A stretch of DNA of 64,000 nt from Saprospiraceae bacterium (GTDB lineage: Bacteria; Bacteroidota; Bacteroidia; Chitinophagales; Saprospiraceae). This document shows positions 54,134 through 62,195 of the stretch, in pieces (positions within the stretch are counted from its first letter, which is position 1; every line of letters begins with the position of its first letter). The position numbers were made by a program, and so were the translations under genes. The stretch lies in assembly GCA_027488135.1 (NCBI GenBank), contig JAIYCH010000022.1, positions 62,001-126,000 of the forward strand. Reading direction: 5' to 3'. The notes under the pieces are model-generated. The model had not been told where the DNA came from, did no database searches, and saw nothing but the letters and a program-made list of their open reading frames with translations.

Positions 54134-55759
54134 ATGTCTTCTGAAAAAAATCCAAATGTAGCCTATTTCTGCATGGAATATGGCATAGACCAACGTTTTA
54201 AAGCTTACGCAGGAGGCTTGGGAATTTTGGCTGGTGATTATTTAAAAGGTGCTCACGATCACCAATATCCTATCATTGGTATTGGTATTCGTTGGAAACA
54301 AGGTTATACCGAACAAAAAATTGATGCATCAGGAAATGCTTACGATAGTTATCATAATTATAAATATGACTTTTTAGAAGATACCGGCATTACCGTTACT
54401 GTGAATATTCGAAAAGTGAAAGTTAACTGCAAAGTCTGGAAGTTAAACCAGTTTGGAAATGCAGATTTATATTTATTAGATACGGATATCCCTGACAATC
54501 ATGACTCATGGATTACTGGGCAGCTTTACGGATGGTTCGGTGAGGAGCGTATAGCCCAAGAAATTGTGCTTGGCATAGGAGGTATAAAAGCTATTAGAGC
54601 CTTAGGCTTACCAATTGATATTTATCATTTTAACGAAGGTCATGCCTTATTTGCAGGTTTTGAACTGTTAAGAGAAAAAATGGAGGATGAAGGACTTACT
54701 TTTGAAAAAGCCGTAGAGGTTGTTAAAAAGGAAGTTGTTTTTACTACCCATACGCCTATAGTGCAAGGCAATGAATCGCACCCAATAGATAAAATCATCT
54801 ACATGGGAGCTAATCTTAACTTAACAAGAGCTCAATTAACTTTTTTAGGGGGCGGAGATCCATTTAACATGACCATCGGTGCACTTAGGCTTTCAAAAAT
54901 AGCCAACGGTGTAGCGCAATTACACGGCGAAACCTCTAATAAAATGTGGGCTGAGGTCGATAAAAGAGCAGACATTCTGGCTATCACCAATGCCATTCAT
55001 CTACCTACCTGGGTGGACAATGCGATGATTCGTGCCGCAGAAGATGGGTCCGATCTTTGGGAACCACACTTACAAAATAAAAGGGCGCTCATTGATTTTA
55101 TTGAAGCAAAAAATGGTGTTCGTCTAGATGAGGAAAAATTAATTATTGGTTTTTCCCGACGTGCTGCACCTTATAAAAGATCTGACTTTATATTTTCAGA
55201 TTTGTCTATCATAGAACCTTTATTACTTGAGAAAAAATTCCAGATCGTTTTCTCTGGTAAAGCTCATCCTCTGGATGACGTTGGAAAGCTCATCGTTAAA
55301 AATTTAGTGGCTATGTCCAGGAAATATCCAAAAGCAGTGGTTTTTCTGGAAAATTACGATATATCCATTGGAAGAATGCTTACCCGCGGTTCAGATATTT
55401 GGTTAAACAATCCAAGAAGACCTTTAGAAGCGAGTGGAACATCTGGGATGAAAGCAGCCATGAATGGCGTATTAAATCTAAGTATTTTAGACGGATGGTG
55501 GCCGGAAGCCTGTGTACACGGTGTAACTGGATGGCAGTTTGGTGACGGTTTTGAACATGAAGAAGAGGAGATTCAGGACGCGCAGGATTTGAAAGCACTG
55601 TACAAAGTATTGTTGGAAGAAGTTATTCCAACCTACTATGAAAATAAGTCAGCATGGATGGACATGATGCGTGAAAGTATTTTGCAAACAAAAGAACCTT
55701 TTGCTGTAAAAAGAATGTTAGAGGAATATTATGAATTGCTCTATAAATTTGAGGCTTAG
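54134..55759 (+). CDS. glgP: Alpha-glucan (glycogen) phosphorylase, short form
   Basis: 541 aa. It releases glucose-1-phosphate from glycogen. Start NVAYFCMEYGIDQRFKAYAGGLGILAGDYLKGAHD matches the short alpha-glucan phosphorylase family (key parts: CMEYGI, AYAGGLGILAGDYLK). The pyridoxal phosphate Lys440 lies in GTSGMKAAMNGVLNLSILDGWW, and FNEGHALFAGFELLRE and FSRRAAPYKRSDF are substrate/phosphate contacts. The shorter length than animal or E. coli enzymes (about 800 aa) is normal for this type. A perfect 16-bp terminator (55791-55826) follows. The branching enzyme is at 13025-14932. Confidence 0.95.
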   Translation: MSSEKNPNVAYFCMEYGIDQRFKAYAGGLGILAGDYLKGAHDHQYPIIGIGIRWKQGYTEQKIDASGNAYDSYHNYKYDFLEDTGITVTVNIRKVKVNCKVWKLNQFGNADLYLLDTDIPDNHDSWITGQLYGWFGEERIAQEIVLGIGGIKAIRALGLPIDIYHFNEGHALFAGFELLREKMEDEGLTFEKAVEVVKKEVVFTTHTPIVQGNESHPIDKIIYMGANLNLTRAQLTFLGGGDPFNMTIGALRLSKIANGVAQLHGETSNKMWAEVDKRADILAITNAIHLPTWVDNAMIRAAEDGSDLWEPHLQNKRALIDFIEAKNGVRLDEEKLIIGFSRRAAPYKRSDFIFSDLSIIEPLLLEKKFQIVFSGKAHPLDDVGKLIVKNLVAMSRKYPKAVVFLENYDISIGRMLTRGSDIWLNNPRRPLEASGTSGMKAAMNGVLNLSILDGWWPEACVHGVTGWQFGDGFEHEEEEIQDAQDLKALYKVLLEEVIPTYYENKSAWMDMMRESILQTKEPFAVKRMLEEYYELLYKFEA

Positions 55760-55790
55760 AATTCACTTTCAAGCCCGAAAAGGGAGCGAT

Positions 55791-55826
55791 AAAGAAAAAG
55801 CCGTCAGCAATGATGGCTTTTTCTTT
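55791..55826 (+). terminator. Terminator of glgP
   Basis: 16-bp stem AAAGAAAAAGCCGTCA (55791-55806) with TGATGGCTTTTTCTTT (55811-55826), one G-U pair and a GCAA tetraloop. A close relative of the same hairpin, with preceding sequence also similar, occurs at 57779-57804. Confidence 0.9.
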
Positions 55827-55880
55827 GTCTAAAAGTGCGTTAGGCTAGTTGTATTTTTTTGTTTTTCGAGGCATATAATT

Positions 55881-55953: not shown

Positions 55954-56481
55954 ATGACAAACTATTTAATTGTACCAGGGCTAGGGAATTCGGGACCAGA
56001 ACATTGGCAAACCTATTTCCAAAACTCAGCGCCTAATTTTTTCCGAATTGAACAGGCTGATTGGGATATACCCACTTGTGAAGATTGGATTAAAAATATG
56101 GATGCTATGGTAACATCATTTGACTTATCATCTGTCGTTTTAATTGGACATAGTTTAGGATGTTCAACCATAGCACATTGGGCAGCAAAGTATAATAGAA
56201 ATATTAAAGGGGCAATGCTTGTTGCTCCGAGTGACCCGGAAGCAACAAATTACACTTTCCCAACAAAAGGATTTTCACCTGTTCCACTTGATAGATTGAA
56301 TTTCAATTCTATTGTTGTAGCCAGTTCAAATGACATTTGGGTTTCTTTGAATAGAGCCAAATTTTTTGCTGATAATTGGGGGAGTGAATTTATAAACATG
56401 GGTGATGCTGGGCACATTAATACAACTTCTGGCCATACTAATTGGGAAGAGGGATTGACAATTTTGAAAAAACTGGGATAA
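55954..56481 (+). CDS. RBBP9/YdeN-type alpha/beta hydrolase
   Basis: 175 aa. The opening MTNYLIVPGLGNSGPEHWQTYF and nucleophile elbow LIGHSLGCSTIAHWA (GxSxG, Ser about 71) are family signatures. The acid Asp is in VASSNDIWVS and the His in MGDAGHINTTSGH, so the triad is complete. RBBP9-type proteins are serine hydrolases of unknown native substrate. It is the first of six small plus-strand genes interspersed with 51-bp repeats; repeat copy 1 begins two bases after its stop. Confidence 0.92.
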   Translation: MTNYLIVPGLGNSGPEHWQTYFQNSAPNFFRIEQADWDIPTCEDWIKNMDAMVTSFDLSSVVLIGHSLGCSTIAHWAAKYNRNIKGAMLVAPSDPEATNYTFPTKGFSPVPLDRLNFNSIVVASSNDIWVSLNRAKFFADNWGSEFINMGDAGHINTTSGHTNWEEGLTILKKLG

Positions 56482-56483
56482 TT

Positions 56484-56534
56484 CAACCCTCCATTTTCCT
56501 TCTTTTTAGAAACTCAATCATCGCATTATAGTTG
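56484..56534 (+). repeat. 51-bp interspersed repeat, copy 1
   Basis: First of four same-orientation, indel-free 51-base copies (others at 57695, 59702, 60136). Copy 1 agrees with copy 2 at 40 of 51 positions by hand count. Conserved blocks are CAACCCT at the start, TTTTCCT at 11-17, AATCATCG at 33-40 and ATAGTTG at the end. The opposite strand reads ATG...TGA over 13 codons (56483-56521). Confidence 0.8.
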
Positions 56535-56543
56535 TATTTTTTT

Positions 56544-57359
56544 ATGATAAGGACCATTACCCCAACTTCTCCAATGCTGAAAAAGTATATTGAATGCTTC
56601 TATATTTATGAAGGTAAGTCCAACTCCGTCTTCAATTATGTAGCATTCCCTCATTTTAACACAGGACTTTCATTTTTCAAAGGAGCGTCGGTTCATAGAC
56701 AAAATTGGACGCTTCAAATTTCAGAAAACACCAATGTGGGAGTACATATTGAAATACTTGGAAAGTACATGACGCCCGTATTGGTGGAATATAAAGGACA
56801 ATTAAGAGAAATATCTATGGTATTCAAACCATTAGGATTGAATCGATTTTTCAAAGAGAATTACCTTTCCTTCGCACCTAAATTTTCCCAGGAATTAACG
56901 AATGATGTCTGGGGTCAATTTGGAGAAAGTTTATTTTCAAGTAATGATGATATTAGTAAAATAGAATCATTTCTACTTTCTCAATTTGTTGATAATCAAG
57001 AATTATCCATTATTGAAAATTCGTTGAAATTATTAGAAAATAGTAATGAGCAATTCTCTATATCAACTATTGCAAATAAGGTAGGACTTAATCTTAAAAC
57101 ATTTCAAAGACATTTTCAGAAACATCTTGGTTGTAGTCCAGTGGAATATAGGAGAATTTTCAGATTTAGAAGCTCGTTAACTAACAAATTGAACAGTTCC
57201 CAATGGAAGAATTTAACCGAAATTACCTATGAAGAAGGTTATTATGACCAGTCTTATTTAATCAAGGAGTTTAGAAAAATTACAAATCATAATCCTAAAG
57301 ACTTTTTTAAGTCTATGATCAAAGTGGATGGCGATAAGATTATATGGGAAATTAAATAG
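56544..57359 (+). CDS. AraC-family transcriptional regulator
   Basis: 271 aa from the ATG at 56544; an in-frame TTG at 56532 lies inside repeat copy 1 and is not used in this call. The N-terminal ~165 residues are a sensor-like domain (SPMLKKYIECFYIYEG, then FPHFNTGLSFFKGASV). The C-terminal 100 residues hold two helix-turn-helix units: ISTIANKVGLNLKTFQRHFQKHLGCSPVEYRRIFRFR and EEGYYDQSYLIKEFRKITNHNPKDFF. The ligand and target are unknown. A small membrane protein gene follows. Confidence 0.92.
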   Translation: MIRTITPTSPMLKKYIECFYIYEGKSNSVFNYVAFPHFNTGLSFFKGASVHRQNWTLQISENTNVGVHIEILGKYMTPVLVEYKGQLREISMVFKPLGLNRFFKENYLSFAPKFSQELTNDVWGQFGESLFSSNDDISKIESFLLSQFVDNQELSIIENSLKLLENSNEQFSISTIANKVGLNLKTFQRHFQKHLGCSPVEYRRIFRFRSSLTNKLNSSQWKNLTEITYEEGYYDQSYLIKEFRKITNHNPKDFFKSMIKVDGDKIIWEIK

Positions 57360-57426
57360 TGTCTTAAAAGTACAATTTTGAGAAATGGCTATGATTTAAT
57401 TTTGATATAAATTAAACGCCATCTCA

Positions 57427-57669
57427 ATGAAAACACCATTTAACAAATTTCTTTACCTTGGATTTTTACTCTTAGGACTGTTTCAAGCATTATTTTCTAA
57501 AGATTACATTCAAGCAGCTTCCTCCCTTGGGATTGGATTGGCTTTTGACCCTTTTGATACGGAACAAAAGTGGAATGACCGACCAACCTGGCAAAAGGCA
57601 GTTATGATTATTCACCTGGCCTTGGTCGCAGCAATGTTTGGATTTGGCATTGGGTTGAATGACAAATAG
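57427..57669 (+). CDS. Small membrane protein, unknown
   Basis: 80 aa with two hydrophobic segments (about 7-24 and 58-76: LYLGFLLLGLFQALF and AVMIIHLALVAAMFGFGIG). The middle reads AFDPFDTEQKWNDRPTWQKA. No family name assigned. It lies 67 bases after the AraC gene on the same strand, and repeat copy 2 begins 25 bases after its stop. Third bases and start context look coding. Confidence 0.7.
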   Translation: MKTPFNKFLYLGFLLLGLFQALFSKDYIQAASSLGIGLAFDPFDTEQKWNDRPTWQKAVMIIHLALVAAMFGFGIGLNDK

Positions 57670-57694
57670 ACTTTCTGCAAACTTGCATAAAGCT

Positions 57695-57745
57695 CAACCC
57701 TTTATTTTCCTGATAGTCACCAACTCAATCATCGAGTTATAGTTG
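57695..57745 (+). repeat. 51-bp interspersed repeat, copy 2
   Basis: Reference copy for the family. About 20 bases to its left are also similar to those left of copy 3 (CTTGCA-like then AGCTCAACCC against AGTTCAACCC). Opposite-strand frame 57694-57732 reads M-I-E-L-V-T-I-R-K-I-K-G-stop. The inner AACTC/GAGTT (57721-57737 area) could form a small hairpin only in this copy. Confidence 0.8.
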
Positions 57746-57778
57746 CATCTTTCGAGGAAAAGGGGAGCCACACTAGAC

Positions 57779-57804
57779 AAGCCATCAGAAATGATGGCTT
57801 TTTT
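57779..57804 (+). terminator. Terminator hairpin, related to the glgP terminator
   Basis: Perfect 9-bp stem AAGCCATCA (57779-57787) with TGATGGCTT (57792-57800), GAAA tetraloop, followed by four or more T. Apart from one base in the stem and the loop, it repeats the core of the hairpin at 55791-55826. Confidence 0.9.
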
Positions 57805-57880
57805 ATGTCTATCAATAAGTTAGTGGATTTGCATCAATTATTTTTTCAAAATGGGGTATTTCAAAAAAAATGCAATACTC

Positions 57881-57888
57881 TATCTTTG
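57881..57888 (+). promoter_or_regulatory. -7 element (TATCTTTG) flanked by inverted repeats
   Basis: Perfect TAnnTTTG box 23 bases before the ATG at 57911. It is flanked by an inverted pair GGGTATTT (57854-57861) and AAATACCC (57897-57904), and TTCAAAATGG occurs twice, at 57845-57854 and again over the start codon at 57905-57914. Confidence 0.65.
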
Positions 57889-57910
57889 TTGAAATAAAAT
57901 ACCCTTCAAA

Positions 57911-58480
57911 ATGGACCTTTTGTACCAAAATTTTATAGACCATTATTCCAACAGTCAACAACTAACCGACCATACGAAAGTAGAAATTTGCAATCATTTG
58001 TCAATCTTGCATTTGAATAAAAAGTACGTACTTATTAAAGAAAATCAACGACACTATTTTGCTTATTTTGTTATAAAAGGGGCAGTAAGAAGTTATTTTC
58101 TGAAGGATGGTATTGAAGTGAATACTTGGTTTGCTTTAGAAAATGATATGGTTGGGTCTTTGCAAAATTTTAATGATAATCCTTCAAAAGAAACCATTGA
58201 GTTGGTTGAAAATAGTACGCTAATTGCAATTAATCTAGAACAAATAAAACCTTTAATGTTTTCTAACATTCAAGTTGCCAATTTTATCAATGCAATAATT
58301 GAAGAGTACGCCCTATTTTTAGAGGACAAGATATACTTTTCTCAAATGATGAATTCAATGGATAAATATCTCATATTATTAGCCAAAGAACCTCAACTTT
58401 TCCAACGTATTCCTTTAACATATATCGCTTCCTTTCTTGGCATTACCAGAGAAACATTGAGTCGTTTGCGCGCAAAATAA
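57911..58480 (+). CDS. Crp/Fnr-family regulator (short C-terminal helix-turn-helix)
   Basis: 189 aa. The sensor part contains KKYVLIKENQRHYFAYFVIKGAVRSYFLKDGIEVNTWFALENDM (key pieces: KKYVLIKENQ, YFVIKGAVRSYF), followed by EEYALFLEDKIYFSQMMNSMDKYLILL. It ends in IPLTYIASFLGITRETLSRLRAK, the minimal helix-turn-helix common in Bacteroidota Crp-like proteins. It is probably not cAMP-regulated, since canonical phosphate-cassette residues are missing. The acyltransferase-like gene follows after 59 bases and may be its target. Confidence 0.9.
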   Translation: MDLLYQNFIDHYSNSQQLTDHTKVEICNHLSILHLNKKYVLIKENQRHYFAYFVIKGAVRSYFLKDGIEVNTWFALENDMVGSLQNFNDNPSKETIELVENSTLIAINLEQIKPLMFSNIQVANFINAIIEEYALFLEDKIYFSQMMNSMDKYLILLAKEPQLFQRIPLTYIASFLGITRETLSRLRAK

Positions 58481-58520
58481 TTTTGTGACATTTGTCAATT
58501 GAAATCATTTTTCAGCATAT

Positions 58521-58528
58521 CATTTTTG
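58521..58528 (+). promoter_or_regulatory. Weak promoter (CATTTTTG with TTG 19 bases upstream)
   Basis: One mismatch to TAnnTTTG; a TTG at 58499-58501 sits 19 bases upstream, which is the expected -33 spacing. It lies 12 bases before the first ATG (58540) of the acyltransferase-like gene. Confidence 0.35.
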
Positions 58529-58539
58529 CAGTCCGAAAA

Positions 58540-59646
58540 ATGCTACTAAAAATGAACGTAACAACTCAAACCAATCGACTTTTATCTATTGATCTTGCCA
58601 GAGGAATGGCCGTATTTTTTATGATTGCTGTTCACACGCTAGAGGTATTTGCAAGTCAAGAAGTGAAAAGTTCGTTATTCGGACAAATTATTGAATTTCT
58701 TGGTGGGCCACCCGCCGCACCTGTATTTATGACTTTGATGGGATTTTCATTCCTATACTCTGGTAAATCAGATTTAAAACCAAAACTCTTACGTGGGTTT
58801 AAAATATTTTTGAGCGGTTACGTTTTAAATATCCTAAGGGGGGTAATTCCGTTTTCGCTGGCTACTAACCTAAAACTGGATGTTGTAAAAACATTCCCCA
58901 TTGAAAAGTTTAATGAATACATGATTTTAACTACCGTTGACATATTACAGTTTGCCGGTATTGCCCTAATGATAATGGCCATTATTCAAGCGCTTAATGT
59001 CGATAAATACCTTGTATTATTGTCGGCATTTGTCATTAGTATGATTTCACCATTTCTCTGGGGAATAAAGTTAGGCATACCAATAATAGACCAAGTATTA
59101 GAACTGTTTTGGGGAGACCAGCCAATAGCGTTTAGTTTTATTGCAAATAAAATCGCATTTCCTGTTTTCCCTTGGCTTACATTTCCTCTTTTAGGAATGT
59201 TTCTTGGCGAAACAGTAAAAAATTCAAATGATTCCAATAGAATACTTAAACACTTTGGTATTGCCGGAATATTAGTCATATTAATAGGCGTTGCCATTTC
59301 ATATGATAATTATCAATATCATTTTAATGACTACTATCATAGCCGTCAAGGTGCTATGTTATTTATGTGCGGGTTTGTACTATTTTGGTTATATTTAAGT
59401 AAATTAATTTTAGACAATTTACCTGAGAACAGACTTTTTAATTTACTATTTCGCTGGAGCAAAGGCGTGACAAATATTTACTTTGTTCAATGGATTATTA
59501 TCATTTGGAGCATTGCACTTTTCGGCATTAACAGTAGCTCATTATCATTTACTATTTTGTTAATCTTGATTTTCACAGCATTATCACATTATACAAACGA
59601 ATTTATCATACACAGACAAAAAATGATTAATAAGGCAGTAGAATGA
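58540..59646 (+). CDS. HGSNAT/DUF1624-type acyltransferase-like membrane protein
   Basis: 368 aa from the ATG at 58540 (58552 also possible). The opening RLLSIDLARGMAVFFMIAVHTLEVFA matches heparan-alpha-glucosaminide N-acetyltransferase (DUF1624) catalytic-domain starts, with the putative catalytic His in VHT. About nine to ten hydrophobic segments follow, including PPAAPVFMTLMGFSFLYSG and FPVFPWLTFPLLGMFLGE. The ending SKGVTNIYFVQWIII resembles DUF418 proteins, so either of these related families may apply. Substrate unknown. Lies 59 bases after the Crp/Fnr gene, with repeat copy 3 following. Confidence 0.85.
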   Translation: MLLKMNVTTQTNRLLSIDLARGMAVFFMIAVHTLEVFASQEVKSSLFGQIIEFLGGPPAAPVFMTLMGFSFLYSGKSDLKPKLLRGFKIFLSGYVLNILRGVIPFSLATNLKLDVVKTFPIEKFNEYMILTTVDILQFAGIALMIMAIIQALNVDKYLVLLSAFVISMISPFLWGIKLGIPIIDQVLELFWGDQPIAFSFIANKIAFPVFPWLTFPLLGMFLGETVKNSNDSNRILKHFGIAGILVILIGVAISYDNYQYHFNDYYHSRQGAMLFMCGFVLFWLYLSKLILDNLPENRLFNLLFRWSKGVTNIYFVQWIIIIWSIALFGINSSSLSFTILLILIFTALSHYTNEFIIHRQKMINKAVE

Positions 59647-59701
59647 TCAATAGAATAATACCCTGCTCTTTGAAGTTTTTCTTGCAAACTTTCACGAAGT
59701 T

Positions 59702-59752
59702 CAACCCTTTAATTTCCTGATAGTTATAAACTAAAACATCGCCTTATGGTTT
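59702..59752 (+). repeat. 51-bp interspersed repeat, copy 3
   Basis: Agrees with copy 2 at 41 of 51 positions without indels. The opposite-strand frame (59701-59739) has a TAG as its third codon but regains the V/I-T-I-R-K-x-K-G ending, so this copy is a broken version. Confidence 0.78.
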
Positions 59753-59782
59753 TAACTTTATTTTTAATTTCAACTTATTAAA

Positions 59783-60154
59783 ATGAATACCATGTTATTC
59801 CCCAAAATATCGCTAGTGCTTAATATTCTAGTGTTAATTCCTGTTTGCTCAGGAATAATTCTGAAGGCCAATTGGGCTGTTGATTCTTATGGAATTGAAA
59901 CGCCAGCCCGAGGCATTTTGCTTTCTATCTATTTAGCTATCCTTATTTTTTCTTCTCTGCTTTTGTTCAAATTTGACCCCAAGTTTGTAATGGCGCTTTT
60001 ATCTGTTCAAATTATATACAAATTATTAAGTCCAATGATGGTTGGTACTATTTCGAATCCTGTAATTATAAGTAATATTTTTATTGCCCTATTTCATTCA
60101 TATAGCGTGTGGAAAATAGTCTTGAATGAAAAAATCAACCCTTTAGTTTCTTAA
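59783..60154 (+). CDS. Small four-helix membrane protein, unknown
   Basis: 123 aa with four hydrophobic segments (about 9-27, 42-63, 68-82, 90-112). Motifs are few: CSGIILKANWAVDSYGIETPARGILLSIY and FKFDPKFVMALLSVQIIYKLLS. It is reminiscent of small DoxX-like or DUF4345-like membrane proteins, but I cannot decide. The last six codons (INPLVS and stop) are supplied by the start of repeat copy 4, so the gene end and the repeat coincide. Confidence 0.7.
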   Translation: MNTMLFPKISLVLNILVLIPVCSGIILKANWAVDSYGIETPARGILLSIYLAILIFSSLLLFKFDPKFVMALLSVQIIYKLLSPMMVGTISNPVIISNIFIALFHSYSVWKIVLNEKINPLVS

Positions 60155-60186
60155 TAGTAACGTACTTAATCATCGAATCATAGTTG
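60136..60186 (+). repeat. 51-bp interspersed repeat, copy 4
   Basis: Agrees with copy 2 at 42 of 51 positions, no indels. Overlaps the 3' end of the small membrane protein gene by 19 bases. Opposite-strand frame 60135-60173 reads M-I-K-Y-V-T-I-K-K-L-K-G-stop. Confidence 0.8.
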
Positions 60187-60266
60187 CGTCGTTCGTCTGT
60201 AATGAGTGCCATTATAGATATTGTAACAAAATTTTAGCTGATTTAAATTGATTTTAAGGGGTGTTT

Positions 60267-62195
60267 TTAAGGCTCTAAACGTTCTATTAGTCTGGCAGAA
60301 ATACGAAGAAAATCCATTTCCGTTATGATACCTATCAGTTCTCCATCAGTAACGACTGGAAGGCAGCCAATTTTCTTTTCGCGCATGATATGAAGCGCCT
60401 CTATAATTGATTTTCCAGGTTCAATAACAATGGGGGAACTAATCATTATATCTTCAACCGTATGCTGTTTGTTTCCTTCTTTTATAGAAATACCTTTTTG
60501 GCTATAAAACCTAAGGAGTAACCTGGAAGTAATTAATCCACAAATATTACCCTTTTGATCTTCCACGGGCATATATCTGATCTTTTTCCAATCCATTAGT
60601 TTTGCTACCAACTCAATGAGGTCATCTTTTGAGACAGTAAAAAGGTCTGTTTGCATAAATTCCTCGACCCGCAAATTCCCTGGTCTATAATCTAACAAAT
60701 CTTTCAATTCAGGTAATTCCCAGGTATGGACAGGTTTACCCAATGTCTGATTTTCATAAATGGCACTGGTCATCACCGTAATAGCTTCATCCATACTTGT
60801 TTCTTTCTTCAGCTTGGTAAATGCGCGAAGCTGCCATCTTGCCCCATTCAAATTCAACTTTGCTCTTTGAGAAATGATATCCATATAAAAATCAATATCA
60901 CCTGAATTAATTCCTTGCGAAGCAAGACCTTCTTTGGCGAGAGGAATGAGTTCATGTTGAACCAGATCGGTTACCGTAATTTTTTTATCTTTAAACCAGG
61001 TAAATTTCGAATCCATCCCAAAGCGCGCTGCTTTCTCAAAATTATCTCTTACATCTTCCCAGCTCATTTTTTTCCTAATATCTCCCCATTCTTTAGCGCA
61101 ACCTACGACGGCCCCTAACCAAAGGGCGGCATTAGCTATTTCATCTACTACGGTTGGACCAGCAGGCAGAACCCTGTTTTCGATACGCAAATGAGGTTTT
61201 CCGGTATCACTAATACCGTAACAAGGTCTGTTCCATCGATACACGGTTGAATTATGCACTTGCAGGGCACTTAATCGGGGAATATTTCCTGCGAGTACTG
61301 TTTCCATAGAATTCTCATTTGTTTCCGGATAAATCAATGATCTGAAGCGAGCAATGTCTTCCCGATAAATATCCAGTATGGAGTTATGAACCCAATCGGA
61401 ACCAAAATTAACTCTTGGACTCCGTTCCCGCATGTGTTCATTAGTGGTTCTTACGTCTAATGCCTGTTGAAAGAGGGCAATTCTGGATTCATGCCATAAT
61501 CGTCGGCCAAAAACAATGGGGGAATTGGCCGAAATTCCCAAAACAGGAGCAGTTAGTGCTTGAGCTATGTTATAATAAGGTACAAAATTTTCCGGATCAA
61601 CTTGCAAGTGAACTTGAAAACTTGTATTTGCCGCTTCCAAAAGAGGGGTATGACTTCTTAGTAATAATTCATCAATGCCTTGAATTCTTAATTCAAAAGC
61701 CTGCCCCAATAACTGAGCACTAAGTGATTCCACCAATAACTTATACCTTTCCCGAGGCGTTAAATTATGAGATTCCAAATCATTTTTATGCAGCGTTGGC
61801 AAAATACCGGTAAGTAATATATCTGATTGAAAATGGGCTAATTCAGATTTAATAATCTGTAACTTTTCATTAGTTTCTGCCTGCATATCTTTGAGTGCAG
61901 AGCCAGTGAAAACACGAGGATCCAGATTTATCTCCAGATTAAATTTTGCCAATTCTGTATCTAACCAAGGTTTATCTTGTAGCAAATCCATGATTTCCAA
62001 CGCAATAGGAGCCGCTTTGAATGATTTTTTTTGTATGATACACATTTCTTGTTCCGCACCAATTCTGGTAATACCGGTTTCAAAAAACTGATTGTGCAAC
62101 ATGTATTCCAGCGCTTGCATGTCCTGCAAAAGATTGGAAACAAATTGTTGCTTACCTAATTCTCCTTTTGCTTTTTTAAATTTTTTCTCACCCAT
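60267..62195 (-). CDS. GCS2-like (glutamate-cysteine ligase family) protein fused to a CBS pair
   Basis: 642 aa. Residues about 25-480 resemble the GCS2 carboxylate-amine/glutamate-cysteine ligase family: GITRIGAEQEMCII (the ATP/metal ExE region), FNLEINLDPRVFTG, NTSFQVHLQVDPENF, and RPCYGISDTGKPHLRIENRVLPAGPTVVDEIANAA. The C-terminal ~135 residues form two CBS motifs: FMQTDLFTVSKDDLIELVAKLMDWKKIRYMPVED and IMISSPIVIEPGKSIIEALHIMREKKIGCLPVV. CBS pairs bind adenosyl ligands, so the ligase-like part may be switched by ATP, AMP or SAM. Whether it makes gamma-glutamylcysteine is not proven. Confidence 0.85.
   Translation of the reverse strand: MGEKKFKKAKGELGKQQFVSNLLQDMQALEYMLHNQFFETGITRIGAEQEMCIIQKKSFKAAPIALEIMDLLQDKPWLDTELAKFNLEINLDPRVFTGSALKDMQAETNEKLQIIKSELAHFQSDILLTGILPTLHKNDLESHNLTPRERYKLLVESLSAQLLGQAFELRIQGIDELLLRSHTPLLEAANTSFQVHLQVDPENFVPYYNIAQALTAPVLGISANSPIVFGRRLWHESRIALFQQALDVRTTNEHMRERSPRVNFGSDWVHNSILDIYREDIARFRSLIYPETNENSMETVLAGNIPRLSALQVHNSTVYRWNRPCYGISDTGKPHLRIENRVLPAGPTVVDEIANAALWLGAVVGCAKEWGDIRKKMSWEDVRDNFEKAARFGMDSKFTWFKDKKITVTDLVQHELIPLAKEGLASQGINSGDIDFYMDIISQRAKLNLNGARWQLRAFTKLKKETSMDEAITVMTSAIYENQTLGKPVHTWELPELKDLLDYRPGNLRVEEFMQTDLFTVSKDDLIELVAKLMDWKKIRYMPVEDQKGNICGLITSRLLLRFYSQKGISIKEGNKQHTVEDIMISSPIVIEPGKSIIEALHIMREKKIGCLPVVTDGELIGIITEMDFLRISARLIERLEP

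Follow-up and report, generated by a model that had tools for sequence, protein, structure and literature searches.

The window analysed here is a 64,000-nucleotide stretch of a Saprospiraceae bacterium (G000:C16:62001-126000, from a 4.2-Mb genome in 156 contigs), in which an earlier note had recognised four same-orientation repeats among six small genes and had read them as a cassette-like array. The question this locus raises is whether the repeats delimit mobile units and, if so, at which site such units are inserted. Our analysis indicates that small mobile cassettes, none encoding its own recombinase, very probably lie stacked in the window. They would be inserted precisely and in one direction at a GGGAGC sequence by a site-specific recombinase acting in trans, this GGGAGC belonging to the 3' end of tRNA-Asn(GUU), to a stub resembling tRNA-Asn or to the end of the preceding unit. 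The cassette-like reading gains support from a second repeat cluster in the same genome, from units that vary between strains, and from precise unit edges in unrelated genomes.

The repeats belong to a larger unit architecture

The four 51-bp copies (at 56484, 57695, 59702 and 60136) lie ungapped on one strand, exactly where they had been placed, and the other three agree with copy 2 at 40, 41 and 42 of the 51 positions, again as counted before. The best ungapped 51-mer in the window that is not a copy matches copy 2 at 28 (plus strand) or 29 (minus strand) positions, and an nhmmer profile built from the four copies gave E values of 4e-15 to 7e-20 for the copies themselves and no further window match with E <0.6. 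Distances to the gene ends had also been given correctly, with the stops of the hydrolase, membrane protein and acyltransferase genes at 56481, 57669 and 59646, and with the stop of the fourth unit (60154) inside copy 4. All six cargo genes are on the plus strand, and the cargo is as mixed as the earlier note described it: a serine hydrolase, an AraC regulator, a small membrane protein, a Crp-like regulator, an acyltransferase-like protein and a 123-aa membrane protein.

The 51-bp repeat is thus real, but it is only one arm of the site. Phylum-wide, the conserved element (repeat A) measures ~90 bp and forms the unit end; the 51-bp repeat is its core, and AAGGGGAGC comes after the ~90-bp element. 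Of 139 copies of A, 129 align free of gaps, and conservation extends from about position 19 of the alignment up to AAGGGGAGC at position 97; the search pattern introduces a bias at positions 60-82 but not at the others. Many A copies are followed by a second repeat beyond the four, hairpin B, then by GTTAGG and a second copy of the TAGTTGCATCTTT box that A itself contains. In the window, B lies at 55788-55858 and 57769-57835 (box included). The complete unit order is GGGAGC, hairpin B, TAGTTGCATCTTT box, gene or genes, A, GGGAGC. Among 39 distinct B segments, each exactly 78 bp long, the inner stem is paired in 95-100% of cases, with compensatory exchanges (C-G/G-C, A-T/G-C, T-A/A-T) and a T run downstream, and judging by this predicted fold B is a terminator-like structure.

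Units are stacked in a single orientation, the first of them behind a tRNA-Asn(GUU) 3' end or a fragment thereof. Across 85 loci with 150 A copies, all copies are on the same strand in 84 loci. The nearest upstream open reading frame is on the strand of A in 110 of 128 cases, at a median gap of 32 bp, and the median A-to-A spacing is 1,212 bp.

Empty sites and shared cassettes place the crossover at GGGAGC

The array locus, bounded by glgP and the glutamate-cysteine ligase gene, is syntenic among relatives of the window's genome and variable in length: it measures ~4.5 kb in the window, and the corresponding lengths in G001, G002, G006 and G004 are 11.5 kb, 10.8 kb, 6.8 kb and 108 bp. Unit content between these same flanks varies by strain, and G004 has no unit at all. 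Its empty site reads TTTCAAGCCTGAAAGGGGAGC followed by CATTATGATAAAAAGG, and the right end of the window array reads GTCTGTAATGAGTGC followed by CATTATAGATA. The G004 locus was assembled twice within one metagenome-assembled genome (L098 and L103; contigs C359 and C281), empty both times, likely from two strains in the bin. The hydrolase cassette lies behind glgP in G000 and G001 and deeper inside the array in G002, and the Crp/acyltransferase cassette comes first in G006 and behind two other cassettes in the window. In G001, the Crp cassette contains an insert of ~2.4 kb (L088:7945-10362), which is flanked on both sides by a repeat of ~86 bp of cassette sequence.

A second empty site is found in Pedobacter. 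In P. puniceum a single cassette with a 162-aa gene separates the GGGAGC of tRNA-Asn from its terminator: the tRNA retains CAGCTTCGGGAGC, the cassette follows, and A ends in AATAAGGGGAG, after which comes a terminator like that of the relatives' tRNA. In these Pedobacter relatives CAGCTTCGGGAGC runs uninterrupted into TTCCAAAAAGCC.

Cassettes shared between genomes have the same edges. The cassettes of L173 and L264 are 95% identical over 2,013 bp, one directly behind tRNA-Asn and the other behind another A; their flanks are unrelated on the left up to GGGAGC and on the right past the next GGGGAGC. The related window cassette, 80% identical to both, has the identical left edge. Two further pairs start at the same left point: L094/L177 (94% over 1,368 bp), in which homology stops at the TAGTTG box because the L094 junction is without B, and L257/L259 (76%), in which the right limit is at GGGAGC. 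One 94% cassette is common to G003, of the window's genus, and a Cytophagaceae genome. In general, homology is limited by the 6-bp GGGAGC at the left and a few bases from the next one at the right. At the level of sequence comparison, these cases show precise insertion at GGGAGC in one orientation. The repeats do mark unit ends, as the earlier note proposed, but the crossover point is the GGGAGC beside the repeat, and the founding target the tRNA-Asn 3' end.

These observations bear directly on the possibility that the array arose by duplication within the locus long ago, followed by reshuffling through homologous recombination among the repeats. The ~80% likeness of the repeats at one locus and fused junctions such as that of copy 1 would fit such a history. 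The earlier note had tied this alternative to copies confined to four spots and to invariant boundaries; copies were found on contig C41, in six genomes of the genus and in 105 stretches, and boundaries vary. Moreover, insertions beside tRNA-Asn in unrelated genomes have only about 6 bp in common with the target, the same cassettes occur at 94-95% identity in different lineages, and the Pedobacter empty site refutes local duplication as the main mechanism. We consider this explanation very unlikely, although recombination between repeats may be behind the loss of B and local deletions.

The target is the 3' end of tRNA-Asn

At visible array heads, B comes directly after the tRNA-Asn 3' end (GGTTCAAGTCCTGATTGGGGAGC, then B). 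In 14 of 60 loci, ARAGORN found a complete tRNA-Asn(GTT) upstream of the array and oriented like it (L118, L119, L132, L139, L153, L154, L159, L162, L173, L185, L186, L187, L192 and L195); in these 60 loci no other tRNA recurred beside the arrays, others being occasional and non-adjacent. In 26 of 85 loci a sequence resembling the 3' end of tRNA-Asn precedes the array on its own strand; the control (downstream, opposite strand) gave 1. The window array itself sits between glgP and gshA at the stub TTTCAAGCCCGAAAAGGGAGC, which is probably derived from a tRNA, given its likeness to these ends.

Non-autonomous transposon ends resembling miniature inverted-repeat transposable elements, landing by chance behind genes, would also give short conserved ends and mobile cargo. 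We regard them as the least probable explanation: there is a single fixed target (the tRNA-Asn 3' end or the previous unit) and a single orientation, ends A and B differ and are not inverted copies of each other, and scattered single copies with target duplications and in either orientation were not seen.

The array in the window

Read with this architecture, the locus comprises the following features (all coordinates are those of the window).

54134..55759, plus strand: glgP-like glycogen phosphorylase gene, the left chromosomal flank, syntenic in sister genomes
55767..55787, plus strand: tRNA-Asn 3'-end-like stub TTTCAAGCCCGAAAAGGGAGC, the putative target site, in which 55782-55787 (GGGAGC) form the crossover block; agrees with the tRNA-Asn 3' ends at the heads of other arrays and aligns with the G004 empty site
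55788..55838, plus strand: hairpin B, terminator-like, opening the first unit
55839..55858, plus strand: GTTAGGCTAGTTGTATTTTT, the arm-like TAGTTGCATCTTT box in its second copy, where the first cassette starts
55954..56481, plus strand: cargo, serine hydrolase (PF06821, domain match)
56461..56545, plus strand: repeat A copy 1, without hairpin B behind it, joined to the next cassette via the TAGTTG box
56544..57359, plus strand: cargo, AraC-family regulator
57427..57669, plus strand: cargo, small membrane protein of 80 aa, with similar proteins in arrays L258, L259 and L266
57672..57768, plus strand: repeat A copy 2, complete, ending in AAAAGGGGAGC (GGGAGC at 57763-57768)
57769..57835, plus strand: hairpin B and GTTAGTGGATTTGCATC box, start of the Crp/acyltransferase cassette
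57911..58480, plus strand: cargo, Crp-like regulator
58552..59646, plus strand: cargo, acyltransferase-like membrane protein (PF07786/PF01757); the cassette as a whole shares 80% identity with L173 and L264
59680..59765, plus strand: repeat A copy 3, with a decayed right end
59783..60154, plus strand: cargo, 123-aa membrane protein without a family match
60135..60209, plus strand: repeat A copy 4 with the right junction GTCTGTAATGAGTGC; from 60210 the host sequence (CATTATAG) continues, as in the G004 empty site
60267..62195, minus strand: glutamate-cysteine ligase-like gene (gshA) with a C-terminal CBS-like part (read from the translation), the right chromosomal flank

Distribution of the repeats

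A search of the window's own genome with the repeat returned a second cluster of copies on contig C41 (12.5-22.9 kb), all on one strand, and weak remnants on contig C59. Copies were present in all six genomes of the same genus, and in none of 53 other genomes of the family and order convincingly (best E 0.009). This suggested a genus-restricted repeat, a notion overturned by a scan of the whole GTDB genome collection: the pattern CATCGNNTTATAGYTGCATCTTT occurs there in 105 stretches, practically all from Bacteroidota and many from lakes and ponds. The exceptions are some labelled 'uncultured bacterium' and one contig labelled Bacilli (L181, Bacilli bacterium YM.12), which carries repeat A and is probably a misbinned Bacteroidota contig. 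Isolates with the pattern include Aquirufa rosea, A. aurantiipilula, A. antheringensis, Sandaracinomonas limnophila and Pedobacter puniceum. Since an even draw of 395 phylum genomes gave matches in two, one being the window's genome, the element is widespread, though uncommon. Among 30 genomes tested there were 1-8 copies per genome, in one to few clusters.

A phage or plasmid carrier was rejected: IMG/VR held no A or B pattern, the phage collection gave no match and the plasmid collection only a 31-bp chance piece. Nor did these three collections contain an autonomous element with A/B ends.

The repeat is not a recognised RNA family either, all Rfam matches near it being sub-threshold and at chance level. 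On its antisense strand, A holds an open frame that closes with a stop in 94 of 121 copies, with a typical peptide ERCNYNAMIE[YF]VTIRKLKG*. Variability of A is concentrated at the codon third positions of this frame (permutation p 0.006), which often stays open across B at A-B joints. The minus-strand frame ERCNYNAMIEYVTIRKLKG* with this codon-like variability was noted for repeat A across the loci, the window copies at 56484, 57695, 59702 and 60136 among them. No Pfam family matched the antisense or plus-strand peptide. Speculatively, the frame could be what is left of an ancestral gene that extended across the attachment site, perhaps that of the lost recombinase.

Which recombinase moves the cassettes?

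The window's genome has two intact Xer-like tyrosine recombinases, plus fragments. One such fragment, on contig C122 (L027:1435-1740), is a broken tyrosine integrase with an in-frame TAG and is the genome's best match to the IntI model, far below the cut-off. Islands with a 409-410-aa tyrosine integrase lie just upstream of two arrays, beside a tRNA-Asn 3' fragment (L253:7689-10805 and L254:8164-10455). Because in L254 the copy of tRNA-Asn that borders the island begins in the anticodon region, the 410-aa integrase appears to cut the same tRNA elsewhere than at GGGAGC, and these islands were rejected as the mover. A 501-aa integrase island in L252 was likewise set aside, as it appears tied to another tRNA (an antisense tRNA-like sequence at its far end, read by eye).

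A small serine resolvase could take the place of a tyrosine integrase within the same cassette model. In G064, G070 and G072 a serine recombinase of 217-268 aa is encoded close to the head of the array, a serine recombinase gene in L252 ends in A, and a 6-bp crossover identity is compatible with either class. Nevertheless, 6 of 16 array-bearing genomes, including that of the window, have no PF00239 match at E<=1e-6 (G000, G002, G074, G077, G083 and G085), and where present the protein may be cargo or part of a neighbouring island. We therefore view a serine resolvase as an unlikely, though not negligible, candidate.

Several points weigh against the cassette interpretation as a whole. No recombinase was found in any unit examined (one search used only three seed proteins), and array-bearing genomes G070, G082, G083 and G085 have only two PF00589 proteins each, of XerC/XerD size. 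Circles or transfer of units are not observed, and most loci lie on short contigs, with the array head outside the visible stretch. In the window itself only the unit boundary at 57763 is intact, and with copies 1, 3 and 4 either fused or decayed, the array may have lost its mobility. Given the absence of recombinases from the units, the mere two Xer-like proteins in some genomes and the patchy serine recombinases, we infer that the mover acts in trans.

The mechanism that we propose for the cassettes starts from a circle of joined unit ends, in which the attachment site would consist of the GGGAGC crossover between two TAGTTGCATCTTT direct repeats. A site-specific recombinase supplied in trans would carry out both insertion and excision. 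A tyrosine integrase is the likelier class, for which the TAGTTGCATCTTT boxes would serve as arm sites. Hairpin B would stand in for the displaced terminator of the tRNA, and junctions without B, such as that of copy 1, would come from recombination between two boxes.

Comparison with known systems

Integron cassettes without an integrase (clusters of attC sites lacking integron-integrases, CALIN) are among the closest resemblances; on this reading A or B would be an attC site moved by IntI. The array shares with them few-gene, often single-gene, co-oriented units with a site at the gene 3' end, clustered copies in stacked arrays, the absence of a recombinase beside many arrays, and broad accessory cargo (PMC9024848). 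In addition, RYYYAAC (GTTYAAC) is often found at the 5' end of A, and GTTAGGC and a hairpin occur in B. However, RNAalifold found no common fold in A, and B does fold, yet homology continues across its GTTAGG box. Homology breaks at GGGAGC and not within GTTRRRY (G/TTRRRY in integrons), a crossover position that refutes membership, and insertion at tRNA-Asn is not integron behaviour. There is no attI or IntI; the IntI model TIGR02249 had no match above cut-off in the window's genome, the one genome searched with it. An identity of A with attC was rejected for its lack of a consensus fold and the crossover lying elsewhere. Because fold, crossover and IntI tests all fail, the units, though they function in the manner of integron cassettes, do not belong to the integrons, and an integron origin of the array is highly improbable.

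The cassettes do have the structure of cis-mobilizable elements (CIMEs) and of tandem accretion of derivatives of integrative and conjugative or integrative and mobilizable elements (ICEs, IMEs; PMC5704250). They have attL/attR-type flanks and neither integrase nor transfer genes (integrases searched, transfer genes assessed by eye), and they stack into the previous att end at the conserved 3' end of a target gene, tRNA-Asn(GUU), which stays intact. Unlike CIMEs, which are decayed individual ICEs, they are single-gene units of ~1.2 kb that share one att architecture over the phylum. Tycheposons and additive tRNA-flanked islands also gather cargo at tRNA genes in freshwater and marine plankton, and one additive island has recurring tRNA-Lys 3'-end repeats (PMC10872708). 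Tycheposons, however, are 4-200 kb long and carry tyrosine recombinases (PMC10872708), whereas the cassettes are units of ~1 kb, at the spacing given above, with no integrase inside.

Recombinase-less units are also stacked at one site and moved in trans in staphylococcal pseudo-SCC (SCC, staphylococcal cassette chromosome) elements. The likeness ends there, as those have rlmH as target, Ccr recombinases and large units, and belong to another phylum. In the literature searched, with subscription papers and preprints outside the search, we found no description of the present cassettes. On balance, we lean towards a dedicated, IntI-independent gene-capture system of Bacteroidota, with short cassettes, a conserved two-arm site, integron-like arrays at tRNA-Asn and its own replacement tRNA terminator, which would circulate among freshwater families and orders by means of a recombinase not yet described for this role.

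Cargo and biological significance

Across arrays, cargo comprises regulators, membrane proteins, toxin-antitoxin systems, abortive-infection-type defence pairs and multidrug efflux. Elsewhere than in the window it includes small multidrug resistance (SMR) efflux proteins, superoxide dismutase, MNT/HEPN and AbiL-like pairs, and subclass B1 metallo-beta-lactamases above the NCBIfam bla_subclass_B1 cut-off. AbiL-like two-gene defence pairs lie within or beside arrays at L260:7703-9719 and L024:18167-19996 (both minus strand), one of them in the window's own genome (C41). The metallo-beta-lactamase cassettes (L254:4779-5534, L260:13626-14381 and L259:11454-12209, all minus strand) are nearest to the CHM/BMHC/CIM families, and their hosts are Sandaracinomonas, Aquirufa and a Flavobacterium-labelled metagenome-assembled genome. 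With such cargo, the cassettes are plausible as an environmental route by which resistance genes spread outside integrons.

The sites are exact enough for automatic annotation in any genome, and they pose a defined question for enzyme hunting, namely which recombinase reads A-GGGAGC-B. Integrons are reported to be very rare in Bacteroidota, in which only In0 elements had been reported earlier and later one complete integron, in Salinibacter ruber (PMC9024848), and how the abundant freshwater members of this phylum exchange single genes has therefore been unclear so far. The cassettes described here would be one answer to this question.

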